Source: Thermodesulforhabdaceae bacterium
Lineage (GTDB): Bacteria > Desulfobacterota > Syntrophobacteria > Syntrophobacterales > Thermodesulforhabdaceae
Reading direction: 5' to 3'
DNA: 64,000 bases
Assembly: GCA_037482015.1 (NCBI GenBank)
Contig: JBBFKT010000001.1
Span: forward strand, 778,584 to 842,583
Shown: positions 3,713-22,780 of the stretch, in pieces
How positions within the stretch are numbered: position 1 is the first letter of the stretch
Layout: each line of letters opens with the position of its first letter
Translations under genes and position numbers: made by a program
Notes under the pieces: model-generated
The model's database searches: none
Seen by the model: only the letters and a program-made list of their open reading frames with translations
What the model was told of the DNA's origin: nothing

Positions 3713-5071
3713 ATGAAGATAGCAATTCTGAGCACCTGCGCACGGAGAACACCACCTCTTCACTATGGCCCATGGGAACAGTTTGTTTCTCTCCTTACAG
3801 AAGGGCTGGTGGAGAGAGGCTTTGATGTTACGCTCTTTGCTACAAAAAATTCGGTTACTAAGGCAAAACTTGAAGCTGTTATTGAAAGAGGTTACGAGGA
3901 AGATGAAGAAATAGACCCAAAGGTGGCAGAATATCTCCACATCTCTAATCTAATGGAAAAAGCAGATAATTTTGACATCATCCACAACAATTTCGATTTT
4001 CCCCCTCTTTGCTACTCTGACCTCATAAGCACCCCAATTGTAACTACTATTCACGGATTTTCTTCAAAGAAGATCCTTCCCGTCTATAAAAAATACAACG
4101 GGAAGACCTTTTACGTAGCAATAAGTGAAGCCGATAAAAATCCCGAACTGGACTACATTGCAACAATCTACCTTGGTATAGACCTTTCTGAATTTACATT
4201 CAGCGATAAAGCTGGTGAGTATTTGCTTTTCTTTGGAGGAATCCATCGTGAAAAGGGCACGGCAGAAGCTATAGAAATTGCAAAGAGAGTCGGCATGCCC
4301 TTGATAATTGCGGGAATTATCCAGGATGAGGAGTATTTTGAAAAAAGGGTTCTTCCTCACATAGACGGAGAAAAAGTAAGATATATCGGGAACGTAGGTT
4401 TTCCTGAAAAAGCAAAACTTCTTTCCTCTGCTTACGCTCTCCTTCATCCTGTAAATTTCGAAGAGCCCTTTGGGGTCAGCATCATTGAAAGCCTTGCTTC
4501 AGGCACTCCTGTGGTTGCCTTTAGAAGAGGAGCTATCCCGGAGATCATAATCCACGAAGAAACGGGCTTTATTGTTGAAAATGTGGATGAGGCAATGGAT
4601 GCGGTGAAAAGGATCCCCCAGATCAGAAGAACTCGCTGCAGGTCTCATGTGGAAGAAAAATTTACGAAAGACAGGATGGTTGAGAAATATATAGAAGTTT
4701 ATAAAAAGATTGCCGACGGAAGTTTGGGCAAAGGACAGCGAGGCTTTAGACCCTGGGGTAGATACATCGTTCTCAAGGAAGGGGAAGGATACAAAGTAAA
4801 GAGAATAGAAGTAAAAGAAGGATGCAGGCTTAGCTACCAGAGACACAAGAGAAGATCGGAACACTGGTATATTGTTGAAGGAAGGGCTGCTTGCACCCTT
4901 GATGGAAAGGAAATTCTTCTTTCCGTAGGCGAGTCAATAGACATTCCCCCCTTTGCTTTCCACAGAATAGAAGCGAGAGAGGGAAATGTTGTTTTCATTG
5001 AAATTCAGAGAGGAGATTACCTTGGAGAGGACGACATAGAGAGAGTGGAGGATGATTTCGGAAGAATTTAA
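3713..5071 (+). CDS. GT4 glycosyltransferase fused to a type II phosphomannose isomerase-like cupin
   Basis: 452 residues in two parts. Residues 1-335 are a GT-B-fold, GT4-type glycosyltransferase: N-terminal MKIAILSTCARRTPP, DIIHNNFDFP, YLLFFGGIHREKGT and the nucleotide-sugar loop EEPFGVSIIESLASGTPVV. Residues 342-452 are a cupin matching the isomerase module of ManC/AlgA-type enzymes: WGRYIVL, YKVKRIEVKEGCRLSYQ, EHWYIVEGRA, IPPFAFHRIEAR, IEIQRGDYLGEDDIERVEDD. The metal-binding His/Glu residues (QRH, EHW, FHR) are present. The ATG follows GAGGAG by 6 bases. The joint product might couple mannose-phosphate metabolism to mannosyl transfer, which is inference. No adjoining sugar gene exists, so it appears to be a free-standing unit. 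Confidence 0.88.
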   Translation: MKIAILSTCARRTPPLHYGPWEQFVSLLTEGLVERGFDVTLFATKNSVTKAKLEAVIERGYEEDEEIDPKVAEYLHISNLMEKADNFDIIHNNFDFPPLCYSDLISTPIVTTIHGFSSKKILPVYKKYNGKTFYVAISEADKNPELDYIATIYLGIDLSEFTFSDKAGEYLLFFGGIHREKGTAEAIEIAKRVGMPLIIAGIIQDEEYFEKRVLPHIDGEKVRYIGNVGFPEKAKLLSSAYALLHPVNFEEPFGVSIIESLASGTPVVAFRRGAIPEIIIHEETGFIVENVDEAMDAVKRIPQIRRTRCRSHVEEKFTKDRMVEKYIEVYKKIADGSLGKGQRGFRPWGRYIVLKEGEGYKVKRIEVKEGCRLSYQRHKRRSEHWYIVEGRAACTLDGKEILLSVGESIDIPPFAFHRIEAREGNVVFIEIQRGDYLGEDDIERVEDDFGRI

Positions 5072-5519: not shown

Positions 5520-8500
5520 ATGAGACCTTACAGACTTTGTTATTTTTCCGCAACCGCCACGGATATACCTTCCCTGAGCGAGGGAGTGAGACGGTTCAAA
5601 GCCTTCGGAGGAAAGATAGATGTTTATGCCAGAACTCAGGGACAACTCCTCACCCAGTCCGCAAGGGAAGCCTTCATTCGCAACGCTTTAGATGCCGATG
5701 CAGTTATAATAACTTTTCATGGAGGGACGGCTTCTTTCCCTGCCTTTCCTATTTTCGCCGAGGCCTTCTCCGAAGGTCGATCCTATGGTCAACGTCCTTA
5801 CCTTCATCTACAACCCGTAGGAGGAATGGACGAAGATGCCATGGAAGCTGCAAGAAAATTTTCCACAGACTTTGGAAACCCCACCTGGGATACCGTAAAT
5901 TTATACCTGAACTATGGCGGCGCCTTTAACATAGAAGAACTTCTAAAATTCCTTCACAATCGGCTTTTCGGAACAGATCTTCCATGCTCACCACCTGTTC
6001 GCCCGCCAGAAGAGGGCATTTATCACCCTGATTTTCCAGGTGTTACATCTCTCGAGGATTATCTTGATGTTGTCAGAGGGTGTTTCAGGTTCTCTCCCGA
6101 GTTTACCGTTGGACTGTGGTTTTATCAAAGTTACTGGCTTAATGGTAACCTTGAGTTTGTCGATGCTATCATCAGATCTGCCGAGGCTCACGGTGCTGTA
6201 GTGATACCCGTTTTTCACCTTCGGTATCGTGATAAAGAGCGTGGAAATCGTGGAGCCAAGGAAGTAGCAGAAATGTTTTTTATGGACGGCGACCGTCCGC
6301 GCATTGATGTGCTTATAAATCCTCTTCTTTTCTCCTTAACACTTGCGTCACCTGACCATCGCTCCATCCTCCCTCAGCTTAATGTTCCCTGCATCCAGGC
6401 AATTACTTCCATGGCACCTTTTTCCTTCTGGAAGGAGTCTCTTCAGGGACTTTCCATAATGGACGTTGCTTATTCTGTGGCTCAGCCTGAGTTTGATGGA
6501 ACTCTTATAACGGTTCCCGTAGCCACGAGAGAAGAAGAATCTATTGATCCCATCACAGGTGCAGCTATTGTTAAATTCAAGCCCATACCTGATCGGGTTG
6601 ATAAATTGGTGAGGCTAGCTCTTAATTGGGCTCGTCTTAAAAAGACTCCTGTAGAAGAACGTCGGGTCGCCATAGTATTTCACAACTATCCTCCCAGAAA
6701 CGATAGAATAGGGTGTGCTGCAGGACTCGATAGCTTTGCAAGCGTTAAAAAACTTCTCGATCGAATGAAGGAATCCGGCTACAGAATTGATCGCACCTAT
6801 TCTGATGGCGATGAACTGGCTCAGGAACTCCTTTCTCGTATGACATGCGACCAGCGATGGCTTCCTATAGAGGAGATGGCACGAAGAGCCGAAGCTTTTG
6901 GTAATTCGGAGGATATAAGCCGCTGGCACAGCGAGCTTCCCCTATCCGTTAAGGAAAAGATGCGTTCCGATTGGGGCAATCCTCCAGGTGATCTGTTTGT
7001 GCATGGGGGCAAGATGTATTTCTCTGGATTAATCAACGGAAATGTCTTTATTACAATTCAGCCACCTCGGGGCAGATTGGAAAACATTGAGAAAATATAC
7101 CATAGTCCGGATCTTTCTCCGCCGCACCACTACCTGGCTCACTACCGCTGGATACGGGATATCTTTGGAGCTCACGCTGTTGTGCATGTTGGAAAACATG
7201 GGTCTCTCGAGTGGCTACCTGGAAAGTCTGTTGGGCTTTCTGGAGAATGCTATCCTGATCTCGCCATAATGGAACTTCCCAATGTTTATCCATACATAAT
7301 TAACGATCCCGGCGAAGGAACTCAGGCGAAACGACGTTCTTACGCTTGCATAATTGACCATCTAACACCGTCTATGACCAACGCTGATCTTTACGACGAT
7401 CTTGCAAAAATTCAGGAACTCGTGGCGGACTATCAAATTGCCTCAACGGAAGATCCAGCTAAGCAGGAAGTCCTTCGTCCCATGATATGGGATGCTGTAG
7501 AGAAAGCCCATCTGGAAAAGGATCTCGCCATAACAAAAGAAGAAGCCTTCAGGGATTTTGACGGCTTCCTCGAAAAGCTTCACGCTTATCTCGGTGAACT
7601 GAGCGATACAATGATCAACGACGGGCTTCACGTGATGGGGGTTCCTCCTGAAGGAGATCGACTTGCAGAGTTTCTCGTTCAGCTTACTCGTCTTCCAAAC
7701 GGTGATGTACCATCTCTCAGGGAATCGATTATTTCTTTTTTTGGCTTTGATTACGACGATGTTTTAGAAAACCGAGGTAAACGTCTCGGGCGCTTTGGCG
7801 GAAAGACCGGGGCCGAGATTTTACGCATTGCTCATGAAAAAGCCCTTGAATTGGTTCGTCGGCTTCAAGTTGAGGATTTTTCTCTTGAAGCTGTTCCCAG
7901 GGTTACCACTCAGGTTCTTGGAAAGCGAGTTTCTCAAGTTGAAGCTGTGCTTTCTTACATAGCCGGGACTTTGGTTGATAATGTTCGAGCCTGCCGCGAG
8001 GAGATTAATTCATGTCTTAGTGCTTTTTCTGGAGGCTTTGTGCTTCCTGGACCTTCGGGAGCGCCAACTCGAGGTCAGGCAGACATACTTCCCACGGGAA
8101 GAAATTTTTATTCAGTTGATCCTAACAAGATCCCAACTCCGGCAGCCTGGGAAGTTGGTGTTAGACTGGGAAAAGCTCTGCTGGAACGCTGCCTTAAGGA
8201 AAAAGGAAACTACCCCGAAAGCGTGGGTATTCTGGTTTTTGCTACTTCTACGATGAGGACAAGAGGGGACGATATTGCGGAAATCTTTTATCTTATGGGC
8301 GTGAAACCGGTGTGGCAGAAGGGAAGCGGAAATGTGATAGGGCTTGAGGTAATACCTCTCGAGGAACTGGGGCGCCCGAGAATCGACGTGGTTCCAAGAA
8401 TAAGTGGGCTTTTCAGAGATACCTTTCCAAACCTTGTTGAACGAATAGATGAAGCTGTTCAGATGGTAGCAACTCTTAAGGAGACAGCGGAATCGAACTT

Positions 8501-9314
8501 TCTGTTGAGGCATGTTGAGCAAGATATGAGAGAATATCTCGCAAGGGGCATGAATCGTGATGAAGCCTTTCGTGAGGCCACGCTCAGAGTGTTCGGTTGT
8601 CCTCCCGGAACTTATGGAGCTGGAGTGGCGGAACTTATCGAGTCTAAGATGTGGAAAACTCAGGAAGATTTGGGAAATATCTACATCAGGTATTCTTCTC
8701 ATGCTTATGGTAGAGGTGTCTATGGCAAAGCCAGGCAGGAGACCTTCCGAAAAGTATTGTCTCGGGTTGATACAACGGTAAAGAATGAAGATTCTCGGGA
8801 ATACGATATGATGTCCTGTACTGATTATTACAACTATTATGGCGGACTTATAGCAGCGGTGAAGACTGTTAGAGGATTCCTGCCGTTTGCTACCATGGGA
8901 GATAGCGCTGATCCAAGGCGCATTAAGATTAGAACTACTCAGGAAGAAGCAAAACATGTGCTGAGATCCAGACTTGTTAATCCTAAATGGCTCGAAGGAA
9001 TGAAGCGGCATGGCTTCAAGGGGGCCGGCGACATTTCTCACGTGGTTGATATTGTTTTTGGGTGGGATGCTACTGCGGAAGTTATGGAAGACTGGATGTA
9101 TGAAGAAATTGCAAGAACCTATGCTTTGGATCCAGCTATGCGTGAGTGGATGAAGAGAGTAAGCCCTTTTGCGCTCCAGAATATCCTGGATAAATTACTT
9201 GAGGCTATTGCTAGAAATATGTGGAAGGCATCGCCGGAAATGGAAGAGAAGCTAAGGGAGATTTTGCTCGAGATGGAGGGCGAGATAGAAGAATGGAGTG
9301 ATCGTAGTGAATAA
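5520..9314 (+). CDS. cobN: Cobaltochelatase subunit CobN (magnesium-chelatase H family)
   Basis: 1264 residues, the full length of the large CobN/BchH-type subunit that binds the tetrapyrrole and, with an AAA+ I/D-type partner, inserts the metal. The region around residue 557 (GKHGSLEWLPGKSVGLS) is the characteristic CobN/ChlH motif; PSGAPTRGQADILPTGRNFY (near 850) and the C-terminal DYYNYYGGL segment (near 1100) also fit. The cobalamin riboswitch in its leader argues for cobalt rather than magnesium as substrate. The ATG follows GAGGAG. No ChlI/ChlD-type ATPase gene is next to it, so the partner must lie elsewhere. The following TPR gene is about 120 bp away and probably separate. Confidence 0.94.
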   Translation: MRPYRLCYFSATATDIPSLSEGVRRFKAFGGKIDVYARTQGQLLTQSAREAFIRNALDADAVIITFHGGTASFPAFPIFAEAFSEGRSYGQRPYLHLQPVGGMDEDAMEAARKFSTDFGNPTWDTVNLYLNYGGAFNIEELLKFLHNRLFGTDLPCSPPVRPPEEGIYHPDFPGVTSLEDYLDVVRGCFRFSPEFTVGLWFYQSYWLNGNLEFVDAIIRSAEAHGAVVIPVFHLRYRDKERGNRGAKEVAEMFFMDGDRPRIDVLINPLLFSLTLASPDHRSILPQLNVPCIQAITSMAPFSFWKESLQGLSIMDVAYSVAQPEFDGTLITVPVATREEESIDPITGAAIVKFKPIPDRVDKLVRLALNWARLKKTPVEERRVAIVFHNYPPRNDRIGCAAGLDSFASVKKLLDRMKESGYRIDRTYSDGDELAQELLSRMTCDQRWLPIEEMARRAEAFGNSEDISRWHSELPLSVKEKMRSDWGNPPGDLFVHGGKMYFSGLINGNVFITIQPPRGRLENIEKIYHSPDLSPPHHYLAHYRWIRDIFGAHAVVHVGKHGSLEWLPGKSVGLSGECYPDLAIMELPNVYPYIINDPGEGTQAKRRSYACIIDHLTPSMTNADLYDDLAKIQELVADYQIASTEDPAKQEVLRPMIWDAVEKAHLEKDLAITKEEAFRDFDGFLEKLHAYLGELSDTMINDGLHVMGVPPEGDRLAEFLVQLTRLPNGDVPSLRESIISFFGFDYDDVLENRGKRLGRFGGKTGAEILRIAHEKALELVRRLQVEDFSLEAVPRVTTQVLGKRVSQVEAVLSYIAGTLVDNVRACREEINSCLSAFSGGFVLPGPSGAPTRGQADILPTGRNFYSVDPNKIPTPAAWEVGVRLGKALLERCLKEKGNYPESVGILVFATSTMRTRGDDIAEIFYLMGVKPVWQKGSGNVIGLEVIPLEELGRPRIDVVPRISGLFRDTFPNLVERIDEAVQMVATLKETAESNFLLRHVEQDMREYLARGMNRDEAFREATLRVFGCPPGTYGAGVAELIESKMWKTQEDLGNIYIRYSSHAYGRGVYGKARQETFRKVLSRVDTTVKNEDSREYDMMSCTDYYNYYGGLIAAVKTVRGFLPFATMGDSADPRRIKIRTTQEEAKHVLRSRLVNPKWLEGMKRHGFKGAGDISHVVDIVFGWDATAEVMEDWMYEEIARTYALDPAMREWMKRVSPFALQNILDKLLEAIARNMWKASPEMEEKLREILLEMEGEIEEWSDRSE

Positions 9315-17123: not shown

Positions 17124-17765
17124 GTGCCAAGAATAGATGACTACCGAGAGGCTTTAAGAATTGCTAAGGAAAACATCCTGAAACAAGATCTTTCAGAAAT
17201 TGCTGAAAAAGCCGGTGGTGAATTTGAAGAAAATGAAGAAGAAAAAATTATAAGGTTCAGTTTTTTCACGGATCCCTGTCTTTTAAGGGTTAAAGGTGGA
17301 GATGTAAGTATAGAACTGGGCATCGAGGGGAAGGAATTATCCCTTACAGATCAAGTTCTTGTTGCTCATTATTTGCTTGGAGCATCCGGAGAGAAAGAAA
17401 CGGGTGAGTGGATCACCTTTAGAGACATACCCGATGGACATTTTTACTACGACGCTTTCCTTAGAAGGGCTCGCGATCCCTTTTTGAAAACTTTTGGTGA
17501 AAAGCTCCAACTTTACGAACGAGTGGCGCCAATGATTGGAGGGGTGCCGGTTGAAGGAATTGGCGATGTGGCTTTCGATTTTCGGGTATTTCCTAGAATA
17601 ACTCTGAGAATTATACTCTGGAAGGGGGATGATGAATTTCCCCCGGAGGCTAGCATCCTCTTTGATAAGAACATTCAACTCTACTTGTCCGTAGAAGATA
17701 TTGCTTATCTTAGCGGGGGGGTAGTTTACCGAATGATGGGTATTGCAAGATCTTTTTCTCAATAA
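17124..17765 (+). CDS. DUF3786 domain protein
   Basis: 213 residues starting at GTG 17124, with AGGAGG 8 bases upstream. Recognisable DUF3786 features are the N-terminal helix PRIDDYREALRIAKENI, FSFFTDPCLLRVKGGDVSIE, LTDQVLVAHYLLGA, WITFRDIPDGHFYYDAF and the C-terminal LYLSVEDIAYLSGG. The family is restricted largely to anaerobes and is often encoded next to CooC/AcsF-type ATPases and corrinoid or CODH/ACS genes, as here (CooC gene 24 bp downstream). Its function is not established. No signal peptide or membrane helix. Confidence 0.8.
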   Translation: MPRIDDYREALRIAKENILKQDLSEIAEKAGGEFEENEEEKIIRFSFFTDPCLLRVKGGDVSIELGIEGKELSLTDQVLVAHYLLGASGEKETGEWITFRDIPDGHFYYDAFLRRARDPFLKTFGEKLQLYERVAPMIGGVPVEGIGDVAFDFRVFPRITLRIILWKGDDEFPPEASILFDKNIQLYLSVEDIAYLSGGVVYRMMGIARSFSQ

Positions 17766-17789
17766 TCTCCAGGAAGGAGGCACAGCAAG

Positions 17790-18572
17790 ATGAAAATCGC
17801 TGTAAGTGGCAAAGGCGGAGTAGGGAAGACTACTCTAGCTGCTTTTCTTGCAAAATGGCTTGGTCGAAATGGATTTGCAGTGCTTGCTATTGATGCCGAT
17901 CCAGATGCCAATCTTGCTAATGCTCTTGGTTGTCCCAACGCCGATTCTATTAGCCCAATTGCTGAGATGAAAGATCTTATCTATGAACGCACAGAAGCTA
18001 TGCCTGGAGGGTTTGGTGGCTTCTTCAAGATGAACCCGAAGGTGGATGATCTACCCGATAAGATTGCTGTGTCCTGCGGGGATAACGTAAGGCTTATGGT
18101 TATGGGAGGAGTTAAAAAAGGTGGTATGGGATGTGTTTGCCCTGAAAGCGTGCTTTTGAAAAATCTAGTCCATCACCTCGTCCTTCGTCACAATGAAGCT
18201 GTAATCATGGACATGGAAGCTGGTATAGAGCACCTGGGGCGAGGCACAGCAAGAGGCGTAACAGCTTTTATAGTTGTGGTTGAACCAGGTAAGCGTAGTA
18301 TCGAGACAGCTTACAGGATTCGAGAGCTGGCAAGCGATATTGGGCTTGAACGAATATTTATAGTTGGTAATAAGATAAGAAGTGAACGGGATAAGGAATT
18401 TCTCGTTAAAGGGCTCAGCGAGTTTTCTTTCTTGGGATTTATTCCCTATGATGATGCTCTCATTGAAGCTGACATGAAAGGAGCTTTTCCTGAAGATGTG
18501 TCGGCCTATACGAGAGCCGCTTTCGAAAGCATAGGGGAAAAGTTACTTAAATTTAACCAGGAGAAGGAATGA
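17790..18572 (+). CDS. cooC: CooC-type nickel-insertion ATPase (MinD/ParA-like)
   Basis: 260 residues, a deviant-Walker P-loop ATPase that assists nickel insertion into carbon monoxide dehydrogenase or ACS. The P-loop is GKGGVGKTT (residues 7-15, with the signature Lys of MinD/ParA dimers). AIDADPDANL is switch I / Walker A', the CxC metal site occurs as MGCVCPES near residue 113, and IMDMEAGIEHLGRG is switch II. Length and motifs are typical. AAGGAGG precedes the ATG. The upstream DUF3786 gene and the distant CooT-like gene (57.2 kb) support a CODH/ACS maturation role, but no CODH structural gene is in the window. Confidence 0.9.
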   Translation: MKIAVSGKGGVGKTTLAAFLAKWLGRNGFAVLAIDADPDANLANALGCPNADSISPIAEMKDLIYERTEAMPGGFGGFFKMNPKVDDLPDKIAVSCGDNVRLMVMGGVKKGGMGCVCPESVLLKNLVHHLVLRHNEAVIMDMEAGIEHLGRGTARGVTAFIVVVEPGKRSIETAYRIRELASDIGLERIFIVGNKIRSERDKEFLVKGLSEFSFLGFIPYDDALIEADMKGAFPEDVSAYTRAAFESIGEKLLKFNQEKE

Positions 18573-18578
18573 AAAAAG

Positions 18579-19394
18579 GTGAATTCAGTATGTTATCTTG
18601 AACCGTCCATAGTAGACGTTCAAAGCCGACCGGATACTAGAAACGTTGCAATTGATAAAGTAGGTGTTAAAAATGTTCGGTATCCGCTTACGGTGCTCGA
18701 TAAGCACAACGGCTTCCAGAATACTGTGGGGTCGATTAACATGTATGTTAACCTTCCCCGACGGTTTAAAGGCACCCACATGAGCAGGTTTATTGAAATT
18801 CTGAACGAATTCCATGGAAATTTTGATATTCGTAATCTTTCAAAAATTCTTGATACTATTAGAAAAAAACTTGATGCTGAATCAGCTCATGTGGAGATTG
18901 CCTTCCCTTACTTCATCAGAAAGCTGTCGCCTGTAACAAGGTCCCCTGGTCTAATGGAATATGGGTGCCGTGTTATTGGATCCATTGATCAGCATAACGG
19001 TTATGATTTGATTGTGGAAGTTATCGTTCCGATCACAACAGTCTGTCCCTGCTCAAAGGAGATTAGCGCCTACGGGGCTCACAACCAAAGAGGTTTGGTG
19101 AGGCTTGCCGTCAGATATGAGAAATTTATGTGGATTGAAGATCTTATCGCTATTGTTGAATCTTGCGCATCTTGCGATGTCTATTCGGTGCTTAAGCGAG
19201 TTGATGAAAAGTATGTTACGGAGAAAGCCTATGAAAATGCAAAATTCGTTGAAGATGTAGTAAGAGATATTGCTCTCCAGATGCAGAACAATCCAAACAT
19301 CACTTGGTTTGCCGTGGATGTGGAAAACTTTGAATCCATCCATAACCATAGTGCCTATGCCTACATAGAAAGAACTAAAAAACGGTGTGAATAG
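18579..19394 (+). CDS. folE2: GTP cyclohydrolase IB (FolE2 / MptA family)
   Basis: 271 residues. Converts GTP to 7,8-dihydroneopterin triphosphate, the entry step for folate-type pterins and queuosine. Family features are PDTRNVAIDKVGVKNVRYPL at the N-terminus, GTHMSRFIEIL, the Cys-containing VCPCSKEISAYGAHNQRG (metal-ligand Cys near residue 155) and the C-terminal VENFESIHNHSAYAYI. The start is GTG at 18579, 6 bases after the cooC stop, with GAGAAGGA within the cooC end as ribosome site. It is cotranscribed with cooC and the downstream fusion gene. Its product is the substrate for QueD encoded at 1.7 kb. Confidence 0.93.
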   Translation: MNSVCYLEPSIVDVQSRPDTRNVAIDKVGVKNVRYPLTVLDKHNGFQNTVGSINMYVNLPRRFKGTHMSRFIEILNEFHGNFDIRNLSKILDTIRKKLDAESAHVEIAFPYFIRKLSPVTRSPGLMEYGCRVIGSIDQHNGYDLIVEVIVPITTVCPCSKEISAYGAHNQRGLVRLAVRYEKFMWIEDLIAIVESCASCDVYSVLKRVDEKYVTEKAYENAKFVEDVVRDIALQMQNNPNITWFAVDVENFESIHNHSAYAYIERTKKRCE

Positions 19395-19395
19395 T

Positions 19396-21630
19396 ATGAC
19401 TCAGAATAAGTCCCAATGGGAAACCCTGGATGAAATTGATAAGGCTTTCTCAGATCCTTCTTTTTATCCCCACGAAATAAAAAAAATCGACCGTAAGGAG
19501 ACCCATATCTCCCTTGTGTTTTTAACCGGTAGGTGGGTTTATAAAATAAAAAAGCCCGTGGATTTTGGTTTCCTTAATTACACGACACTGGATTTGAGAA
19601 AGCACTACTGCCATCGAGAAGTGGAGCTTAATAAAAGACTTTCTGATGATGTTTACGACACCGTAGTGGAGATCTGTCGGGATCCTGAAACGGGGAAACT
19701 CACCTTAGAACGCCAATGTAATAGCCCGGTCGAATACGCCGTTAGAATGCGAGAACTTCCCGATAATGCCTGTTTTAGGCGGCTCATTGAACGGGGGGAG
19801 GTTACTTCAAACCACATTCAGTCCATAGCAAGAAGACTGGCGGATTTCTACTCTTCAGGGTTTGTCCTTCCTGATAAGCTGGCTTTGTATGGCGGAATTG
19901 AATATGTTCGCTTCAATACCTACGAAAATTTCAAACAACTGGAGCCCTTTGCTCAGGAAATAGGCGGGAAGAGCTTTCTCCAGTGGATGAAAAATCTAAC
20001 TTACAGGTTTACTGTCCTGTCCAGGAATCTTTTCGATGAGCGACTGAGGAAGGGTTTTGTAAAAGATGGGCATGGCGATCTGAGAGCTGATCATATTTAT
20101 TTCTACCGAGGCGTTCATATTATAGACTGCATTGAGTTCAATAATAGATTTAGATACGGTGACGTAGCCGCCGATCTCGCCTTTCTTTTCATGGATCTTC
20201 TGAGACTTGGCTATCCCGATTATGCCTATCGAATTATCGACGAGTATGTCAGGGTGAGTGGAGACTTTCAGTTGTGGTTTCTTTTCGATTTCTACACAGC
20301 ATATCGAGCTGTAGTGAGGGCCAAGGTAGCTTGCCTTGAAACTCTTAGCCATCCGAGCGATGCAGAACAAAATTGCCGCTGTTTTGACGGGGCTCGACGA
20401 TTCATGAACCTGGGAGCAATCCATACGGTAGCTTATGGGATTCCCACAGCTTGGGTTTTTATGGGACCTCCGGCATCCGGAAAGTCCAGACTAGGCAAAA
20501 GGGTGGCTCAACTTGGGCATATGCTTTACATCTCGTCAGATCAGCTTCGCCGCCAGATTTTTCCTGATGCAAATCGCTCTCCCTTCGGGCAGGGAGCATA
20601 CGCTAAAGAGGCTAGAGATGTAGTTTACGAAAGAATTTTCGAAGATGCTTCTAAGGCTGTAAAGAGTGGGCGATCAGTGGTTATAGATGCTACGTTCTCA
20701 TCGTCCAAGTGGAGAAAAGCGCTTCTTGGGGCGTTGCTCGACTATCCCGTTCATGTGGTGTTTGTGGAAACTACGGCAGATAAGGCCACCTTGGCGGAAA
20801 GGCTTAGAAGTCGAGAATATTCTTCGGATACAGGTGAAAGCGATGCAAGAATTGAACATCTTGAGCGGTTTCTTGAAACCTACGAACCTCCTCATGAGCT
20901 AAGAGCCGATATGCATGTGCTGGTCAACACAACCGTGGACGACGAAAACCAATCTCTTCTGAAACTACTTTCGGAAGCTATTAAAAAAAGAATACTTCAG
21001 GCCAGAAGCATTAAACCTTACGGAGGCGAAGATGAAAGACCAACTAGAAGTATCTGGAGAATTGTACCAAAAGAGCGAGAGAATATTGACTATAGAATTA
21101 GGTGGCGTAAGGGTATTTTGCCTGTTCTTATAATCGCCCCTCACGGAGGATTTATAGAACCTGGAACATCCATCATAGCTGAAGCTATCGCGGGAGAAAA
21201 ATATTGGTTTTACGCCTTTGAAGGTATTAAACCCTCGGGAAACATGAGCCTTCATGTGTCGAGTAATTTGTTCGACGAGGATAGATTCCTCGATATTTCT
21301 TCTCAAGTAGTTTGGACTTTGTCAGTTCACGGCTATGCGTCCCCTGAAGAAACCATATTTGTCGGTGGGCGCGATGCTGTAGGGTGTGAAGAAATAAGCG
21401 AGATTTTAAGAGAATCCGGGTTTGATGCTGTTGCAACCTGTCCTAAAGGTATTCGAGGCACAAACCCAAGGAATATTGTTAACAGAAACTTATCGAGCAC
21501 AGGTGTGCAACTAGAAATTAGTAGGGGAATGCGGAACCATGTTATAGACGGGAATGAAAAAGGACAGCGGTTTTTGGAAGCTTTAAGAACGGCTGTGGAA
21601 CTTACCACTCGAAGGTTTCTTAGCAAGTAA
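19396..21630 (+). CDS. Three-domain fusion: COG2187-type kinase - AAA_33/zeta-like kinase - poly-gamma-glutamate hydrolase-like domain
   Basis: About 744 residues with the ATG at 19396, 1 base after the folE2 stop. Residues 1-330 resemble the aminoglycoside-phosphotransferase-like COG2187 family: WVYKIKKPVDFGFLNYTTLD (ATP Lys), DGHGDLRADHIYF (catalytic HGDLxxxH loop) and IIDCIEFNNRFRYGDVAADL (metal-binding Asp). Residues 350-520 are a P-loop kinase: FMGPPASGKSRLGKRVA (Walker A), ISSDQLRRQIF and VVIDATFSS. Residues 560-744 match the poly-gamma-glutamate hydrolase / DUF867 family: LIIAPHGGFIEPGTS, SVHGYASPEETIFVGGRD and VQLEISRGMR, with the metal ligands (HGG, E, H) retained. The first two domains are often fused in bacteria; the third is unexpected. 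Substrates are unknown. Confidence 0.85.
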   Translation: MTQNKSQWETLDEIDKAFSDPSFYPHEIKKIDRKETHISLVFLTGRWVYKIKKPVDFGFLNYTTLDLRKHYCHREVELNKRLSDDVYDTVVEICRDPETGKLTLERQCNSPVEYAVRMRELPDNACFRRLIERGEVTSNHIQSIARRLADFYSSGFVLPDKLALYGGIEYVRFNTYENFKQLEPFAQEIGGKSFLQWMKNLTYRFTVLSRNLFDERLRKGFVKDGHGDLRADHIYFYRGVHIIDCIEFNNRFRYGDVAADLAFLFMDLLRLGYPDYAYRIIDEYVRVSGDFQLWFLFDFYTAYRAVVRAKVACLETLSHPSDAEQNCRCFDGARRFMNLGAIHTVAYGIPTAWVFMGPPASGKSRLGKRVAQLGHMLYISSDQLRRQIFPDANRSPFGQGAYAKEARDVVYERIFEDASKAVKSGRSVVIDATFSSSKWRKALLGALLDYPVHVVFVETTADKATLAERLRSREYSSDTGESDARIEHLERFLETYEPPHELRADMHVLVNTTVDDENQSLLKLLSEAIKKRILQARSIKPYGGEDERPTRSIWRIVPKERENIDYRIRWRKGILPVLIIAPHGGFIEPGTSIIAEAIAGEKYWFYAFEGIKPSGNMSLHVSSNLFDEDRFLDISSQVVWTLSVHGYASPEETIFVGGRDAVGCEEISEILRESGFDAVATCPKGIRGTNPRNIVNRNLSSTGVQLEISRGMRNHVIDGNEKGQRFLEALRTAVELTTRRFLSK

Positions 21631-21657
21631 TCTTACTTGGAAGAAAGGGCAAACACT

Positions 21658-22449
21658 TTGAAAAATAAGACATTTAGCCTAACACTTTTATTGATTATAG
21701 TTTTTTGTGAAGCTATAGCCTGGGCTCAACAAAATCCACCTGCAGAAGAGACTCAGCCCAGCAAAGCTGTCCAACAGGATCTAGTGGTGGAGAATAACCT
21801 TTTTTCGCCGACAAGAACTCCACCATCTACCAGTAAACAGCATGATAATGCTACTACTCAGATTTCACCGAGTGATCTTCAGCTCGATGGAGTAATACTT
21901 ACGAAGGATAAGAAACGAGCCATTTTCAAAGTAAATCCAAATATCCTGGGAGATGAAAAAGCCAAGAAAAATCCTTATGTTACGGTTCCTGAAGGGGGGC
22001 AGATCGGCTCTTATAAGATTATATCTGTTCAAAAAAATCAGGTTATAGCTGACCAGAATGGACAGCAAGTAGTAATACCCCTAATAAAGACCGGTAAGGC
22101 TCCTTCGCCTATTACCGTGCATCTTCCTACAGTTTCGTTATCGCCTGCAACTCCAACACAATCAGCTAAACAACCTCCCGCACCACAGCCTCCAGCGGGA
22201 GCTGGTCATCCATCTCCAAAAGGAACAACTCCAGCAGAACCAGCACCAGGAGAGCAGATTCAGCCCCAATCGCAACCTTTGCCATCTCCTTTCCAAGGTG
22301 GTCAAGCCGAGGTAGAAGAAGTTTCGACTCAACCTCCATTGCCTGCCCCTGAGGATTTTGAAAAGCTGAGCCCTGAGCAAAAAGAAGAAGTGATTAAAAA
22401 AATGCAAAGCACCATGGAGCGTAAAATCAAGAGCAATATTCAAAAGTAA
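21658..22449 (+). CDS. Exported proline-rich protein with a GspC/PilP-like core
   Basis: About 263 residues using TTG at 21658, which has AAAGGG 8 bases upstream and opens a good signal peptide (KNKTFSLTLLLIIVFCEAIAWA). Residues 45-150 hold a small beta domain, VENNLFSPTRTPP, LQLDGVILTKDKKRAIF, VTVPEGGQIGSYKIISV and VIADQNGQQVVIPL, with the order and the LxGVI / GxxIGxYKI pattern of the GspC homology region or PilP. Residues 150-225 are Pro/Gln-rich, and the tail is a charged helix. An alternative TTG at 21637 lies 6 bases after the preceding stop. No other secretion genes adjoin, so a type II secretion role is only suggested. Confidence 0.65.
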   Translation: MKNKTFSLTLLLIIVFCEAIAWAQQNPPAEETQPSKAVQQDLVVENNLFSPTRTPPSTSKQHDNATTQISPSDLQLDGVILTKDKKRAIFKVNPNILGDEKAKKNPYVTVPEGGQIGSYKIISVQKNQVIADQNGQQVVIPLIKTGKAPSPITVHLPTVSLSPATPTQSAKQPPAPQPPAGAGHPSPKGTTPAEPAPGEQIQPQSQPLPSPFQGGQAEVEEVSTQPPLPAPEDFEKLSPEQKEEVIKKMQSTMERKIKSNIQK

Positions 22450-22477: not shown

Positions 22478-22780
22478 ATGATCCAGGTTAGATATCCCTT
22501 CATTACATTGACTCATAACGGTTTTTTCCTTGATGTGTTAATTCAACCTAGATCTTCTCGAGACGAATTAGCCGGGATTCACGATAACTGTCTCAAAATT
22601 CGCCTTACTGCCCCTCCCGTGGATGGGGCTGCAAATAAAGCCTGTATTGAATTCATAGCAAAAATTTTGGGTGTAAGTCGATCCAGGATCACTATTGTTA
22701 GCGGTCACAGTAGCCGCAAAAAGAGATTGTTTGTTGAGGTGGCAGAACCCGGCAAATTGATTGAAACTCTTCCATTGTGA
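22478..22780 (+). CDS. YggU / DUF167 family protein
   Basis: A 100-residue protein with the DUF167 (UPF0235) hallmarks: LDVLIQPRSSRDELAG, LKIRLTAPPVDGAANKAC, FIAKILGVSRSRITIVSG and SRKKRLFVE. It is a small alpha/beta cytoplasmic protein found across bacteria and archaea without a settled function. It ends the co-directional group that begins with DUF3786 and lies 28 bp after the GspC-like gene. The ribosome site is weak (GGTAACGGA). Confidence 0.88.
   Translation: MIQVRYPFITLTHNGFFLDVLIQPRSSRDELAGIHDNCLKIRLTAPPVDGAANKACIEFIAKILGVSRSRITIVSGHSSRKKRLFVEVAEPGKLIETLPL

Follow-up and report, generated by a model that had tools for sequence, protein, structure and literature searches.

A kinase and a gamma-glutamyl hydrolase in one reading frame in a Thermodesulforhabdaceae genome: two known families in a very recent or only apparent fusion

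Proteins annotated as 'bifunctional aminoglycoside phosphotransferase/ATP-binding protein' (COG2187-COG0645) consist of an APH-fold domain followed by a P-loop kinase. An example is Rv2004c of M. tuberculosis, which has been linked to COG2187 and shows weak similarity to gluconate kinase (PMC1950094). Our literature search gave no characterised substrate for these COG2187-COG0645 kinases. The zinc gamma-glutamyl hydrolases of PF05908 (MEROPS M86) include PghP and PghL/YndL, in which the zinc ligands, catalytic residues and substrate-recognition residues have been assigned (PMC6506827); in PghL the zinc ligands are His41, Glu46 and His102, and a Thr79 to Ala change in PghP nearly abolishes activity (PMC6506827). 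Joining of such a hydrolase to an unrelated enzyme domain also occurs in three Desulfobacteraceae MAGs (L097, L098 and L100), where the hydrolase is N-terminal and its acetyltransferase-like partner was assigned to GNAT by eye. Finally, neighbouring operon genes are known to fuse through loss of a stop/start overlap: the genes are co-directional, the overlap is short, and an indel brings both into one frame.

Here, we describe a 744-aa open reading frame in the window, that is, the whole 64,000-nucleotide stretch that was analysed. It runs from an ATG at 19396 to a stop ending at 21630 without an internal stop, with a GTG at 19387 as an alternative start. The encoded domains are, in order, an APH-fold kinase, a gluconate-kinase-like P-loop kinase and a PF05908 gamma-glutamyl hydrolase, with catalytic residues intact. 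The motifs quoted in the sequence-only reading are HGDLRADH at residue 226, GPPASGKS at 357, APHGG at 581, SVHGY at 643 and QLEISRGMR at 705. Unlike other COG2187-COG0645 kinases, this protein continues in the same frame into a PF05908 domain and, unlike in PghP and PghL, its hydrolase is fused behind a kinase. The features of the locus are as follows.

17124..17765, + strand: DUF3786 protein, first gene of the kinase operon (PF12654, E 3e-50); kept upstream of CooC-folE2-kinase in 5/5 family genomes
17790..18572, + strand: CooC-like/MinD-type P-loop ATPase (PF01656, E 3e-21); upstream of folE2 across the order
18579..19394, + strand: folE2, GTP cyclohydrolase IB (PF02649, E 3e-96; NF010200 over cut-off)
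19396..21000, + strand: bifunctional kinase part, a COG2187-like APH fold (residues ~1-345) and an AAA_33/gluconate-kinase-like P-loop kinase (~350-535), from AAA_33, phylum homologues and fold matches
21001..21050, + strand: junction/linker; pLDDT under 50 over residues 543-575 of the AlphaFold model
21022..21034, + strand: putative vestigial ribosome-binding site and start, GGAGG-CGAAG-ATG (GGAGG-N5-ATG), frame +1 relative to the fused frame
21045..21047, + strand: TAG, candidate former kinase stop, in the kinase frame if one base is added after the ATG
21046..21630, + strand: PF05908 zinc gamma-glutamyl hydrolase part
21637..22449, + strand: GspC-like protein, the putative ancestral downstream partner of the hydrolase (TIGR01713, E 4e-7, below cut-off); after the hydrolase in 5/5 family genomes
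22478..22780, + strand: YggU/DUF167 protein (PF02594, E 5e-26), downstream in the window's genus only

Elsewhere in the window, 3713-5071 encodes a glycosyltransferase fused to a mannose-6-phosphate isomerase type II cupin domain (PF00534 and PF01050), and 5520-9314 a CobN/magnesium-chelatase large subunit of 1264 aa with two homologues on one contig (C29) of the sister genome (76% and 36% identity).

The kinase part is of a widespread kind, as a search of 395 phylum genomes returned homologues of the query in 274, and most of these align with the two-part kinase. AAA_33 matches residues 353-499 (E 2e-25), and a Pfam search of the N-terminal 345 residues gave no match. In the AlphaFold model of the fused protein, which was built on 19 sequences and has a mean pLDDT of 81 (about 90 over the kinase), the N-terminal part is similar in size and fold to APH(2'')-IVa, choline kinase and N-acetylhexosamine kinase, and the middle domain has gluconate kinase as its fold match. 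The protein thus has an APH-type fold and then a P-loop kinase with Walker A, the order that marks COG2187-COG0645, and we take its kinase part to be of this type.

The hydrolase part is just as readily placed. PF05908 matches residues 559-718 with an E value of 8e-50 (169 bits against a cut-off of 22; profile positions 10-170 of 191), PHROGs returns poly-gamma-glutamate hydrolase, phmmer matches the solved gamma-PGA hydrolases YndL/PghL 5onl (E 1e-28) and PghP 3a9l, and this part of the AlphaFold model matches the YndL/PghP fold. All three domain identities proposed in the sequence-only reading were borne out, since AAA_33 and PF05908 both matched and the N-terminal APH fold was recovered through the model. 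The zinc ligands of PghL/PghP are found as H583, E588 and H645 and the catalytic Glu as E707; PghL His77, Glu165 and Arg171 correspond to H620, E707 and R713. Within the substrate-recognition set of His77, Thr79, Ser80 and Arg171, the His, Ser80 and Arg are kept, and Thr79 is replaced by Ser. In the alignment, the window's genus has Ser at this gamma-PGA-binding position, and three other genera of the family have Pro. As the Thr79 position is changed, and its change to Ala is so damaging in PghP (PMC6506827), the substrate of the family's hydrolase may differ from gamma-PGA.

The relatives of this hydrolase include proteins in 215 phage records, and its solved homologues degrade gamma-PGA (PMC6506827). 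The hydrolase part could accordingly be a domesticated phage gamma-PGA depolymerase that acts on a capsule, but we consider this unlikely. No phage relative reaches 60% identity, and nearly all come from Bacillus and Staphylococcus phages, whereas the hydrolase tree groups the window's protein with chromosomal genes of its own family. Moreover, no secretion signal is apparent in the sequence of the hydrolase part, and a PgsB search of the window genome gave no match, in agreement with the report that pgsB is missing in most non-Bacillales carriers of the hydrolase (PMC4497714). The best reading of this part is a predicted cytoplasmic zinc hydrolase of gamma-glutamyl bonds.

A conserved three-domain family would show the same fusion in more than one genome. 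PF05908 is present in 30 of the 395 phylum genomes, and none of the other 29 has the kinase-hydrolase fusion; in those 29 genomes the open frames are ~120-330 aa, the length of a lone hydrolase. PF05908 likewise lies in short lone frames among the matches listed in a survey of 39 genomes of the order. When relatives were gathered from a large species-genome collection by a scan with the hydrolase alignment, none of the closest 80 of 438 (named loci) had the fusion, and the hydrolase lay beside the kinase only in the same-genus record; that relative has two ORFs. Scanning the same collection with the single fused protein gave no match, probably for want of conservation in the peptides sampled from it. 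Long kinase open frames elsewhere (706-893 aa) were considered as further fusions; the case examined, L017, is an open upstream frame with no domain-like sequence. The kinase-kinase-hydrolase architecture is not an established family, and the combination is uncatalogued, as the sequence-only reading had proposed: it occurs in none of the other genomes examined. Neither outcome that this reading had named as fatal to it, a missing PF05908 match or an architecture already catalogued with a function, came about. Confined as it is to one genome among those examined, the fusion looks like a single event and not an evolved enzyme family.

The same-genus closest relative is Syntrophobacterales bacterium SKW214 (G073; JAOACS010000018.1), which has the same gene order as the window from DUF3786 to acyl-CoA dehydrogenase. 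In this species the kinase and hydrolase are adjacent ORFs in different frames, and the kinase TGA and hydrolase GTG overlap by 4 bases as GTGA. We compared the genes of the two genomes by raw pN/pS, because saturation of the synonymous sites precluded a valid dS. The values (0.22/0.76 for the kinase, 0.15/0.80 for the hydrolase) show both halves to be under purifying selection, a signal that comes mostly from their time as separate genes.

The linker of the fused frame contains an out-of-frame start. Its GGAGG-N5-ATG could be there by chance; when comparable, overlapping stretches were taken from the other genes of the window, 44 of 10,454 (0.4%) contained a strict GGAGG-N4-8-ATG out of frame. 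One base added between the ATG at 21032 and 21045 places the hydrolase in frame with this ATG and ends the kinase at TAG 21045-21047, with a tail about as long as in unfused relatives. From 20983 to 21117 there is no in-frame ATG, GTG, TTG or CTG, so the hydrolase, in the sequence as given, is made only as part of the fusion. A frameshift of a single base probably produced the fused frame; it would be either a recent mutation or an error in the genome sequence.

It is possible, and has to be taken seriously, that the organism has no fusion at all: one base would be missing from the assembly between 21032 and 21045, and the true locus would be two overlapping genes. This would explain why a single added base restores both the kinase stop and a hydrolase ATG with a well-spaced GGAGG; exactly this two-gene arrangement, with its 4-base overlap, is found in the congener, and the hydrolase has no other in-frame start. 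However, no long homopolymer lies at the site, the contigs of the assembly are large (937 kb), and ~26 other genes of the window genome (roughly 28 kb) show no frameshift against relatives, which mildly favours a real event over a high error rate. We think it reasonably likely that the fusion exists in the living organism.

The two halves of the protein have different neighbours in the rest of the family. In three other genera (G037, G211 and G395), the kinase lies behind DUF3786-CooC-folE2, and the hydrolase is on another contig, followed by a GspC-like gene. Two of them (G037 and G211) share the order rpsB-tsf-pyrH-frr-uppS-cdsA-dxr-rseP-tsaB-x-hydrolase-GspC-nagZ, in which nagZ was assigned by PF00933 and the other genes mostly by eye from their sequences. 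In the window genome and its congener, gene x is the last of the rpsB...tsaB operon, the hydrolase is missing there, and nagZ is found at another site, behind chemotaxis genes. The hydrolase tree supports the window and congener proteins as a pair (100/98) and the five family members as a group (100/99). As it is congruent with the family, it points to a resident gene that moved and not to a newly acquired one. The direction of the move, as we infer it, rests on the two genera with the full tsaB-x-hydrolase-GspC-nagZ order, with the third consistent.

Two further features of these loci are worth recording. A CooC-like ATPase, folE2 and the COG2187-COG0645 kinase form an order-wide cluster (window 17124-21000; L003-L018, L026 and L032), which DUF3786 heads in five family genomes. 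At the tsaB locus of two genera, the operon is followed by a tight group of hydrolase, GspC-like gene and nagZ (L039 8704-10971; L041 370-2523). From this packing, PF05908 proteins might be linked to the recycling of peptidoglycan. We do not draw such a link through nagZ; in other families of the order the hydrolase has RNase H-like, glycosyltransferase and other neighbours.

Where the flanking sequence of a locus is long enough, all order-level relatives keep the order CooC-folE2-kinase. By these comparisons, the link between the kinase and folE2 is old and order-wide; that between the hydrolase and folE2 appears to be a recent accident of position. The sequence-only reading was right that the fused ORF follows folE2 at one base's distance (folE2 ends at 19394 and the ORF begins at 19396). 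It had also raised the possibility of a functional tie between the hydrolase and folE2, which our comparisons do not support, as the adjacency is found only in the window's genus and the hydrolase lies in other operons elsewhere. Its suggestion that the protein trims a pterin/folate polyglutamate drew solely on the same adjacency, which is recent, and is likewise not supported.

A protein physically fused and set one base behind folE2, with a kinase-folE2 link that spans the order, might be taken for an evolved trifunctional enzyme, whose kinase and hydrolase would work one after the other on a single gamma-glutamylated pterin/folate-like substrate, its pterin coming from folE2. We give this hardly any credence. 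Every other genus of the family has the hydrolase in a different operon, its neighbours elsewhere in the order are unrelated ones, the kinase-folE2 unit exists without it, no conserved fusion was seen among the genomes and loci examined, and the linker is predicted to be disordered. The fused chain most likely consists of two independent enzymes, which have unrelated jobs and are joined through a flexible linker.

Collectively, we think it very probable that the fused frame arose by an operon junction and a loss of frame, in the organism or in the assembly, giving two independent modules. In the ancestor of the genus, two unrelated operons would have been joined end to end, when the hydrolase-GspC-like pair moved out from between the tsaB operon and nagZ to a position immediately after the old DUF3786-CooC-folE2-kinase operon. 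Kinase and hydrolase would at first have overlapped as two separate genes, an arrangement that the sister species retains. The mutation that we infer, a one-base frameshift between the former ATG of the hydrolase and the former stop of the kinase, would then have made one frame and a 744-residue protein. This resembles known fusions of neighbouring operon genes, but differs in that the two genes would have become adjacent only recently, with no functional history to the pairing. If the sequence is right, a folE2-associated two-part kinase and a predicted cytoplasmic zinc gamma-glutamyl hydrolase would be tethered by a linker of ~35 residues, predicted to be disordered or flexible; no substrate channelling between them would be implied. 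That the fusion is real, fixed in the species, and has by this tethering become a new bifunctional enzyme for a gamma-glutamylated metabolite seems to us very improbable.

In sum, two known families meet here in a very recent or only apparent fusion, which gives no evidence of a new system and is a curiosity. It illustrates that a striking domain combination can arise from one operon move and one base, and that fusions need checking against the nearest relative before substrates are inferred from them. A lead of more lasting value is the CooC-folE2-kinase cluster found across the order. It connects a very widespread, uncharacterised family of kinases with pterin metabolism or metal-cofactor assembly, and is a better pointer to the kinase's substrate than the fusion.
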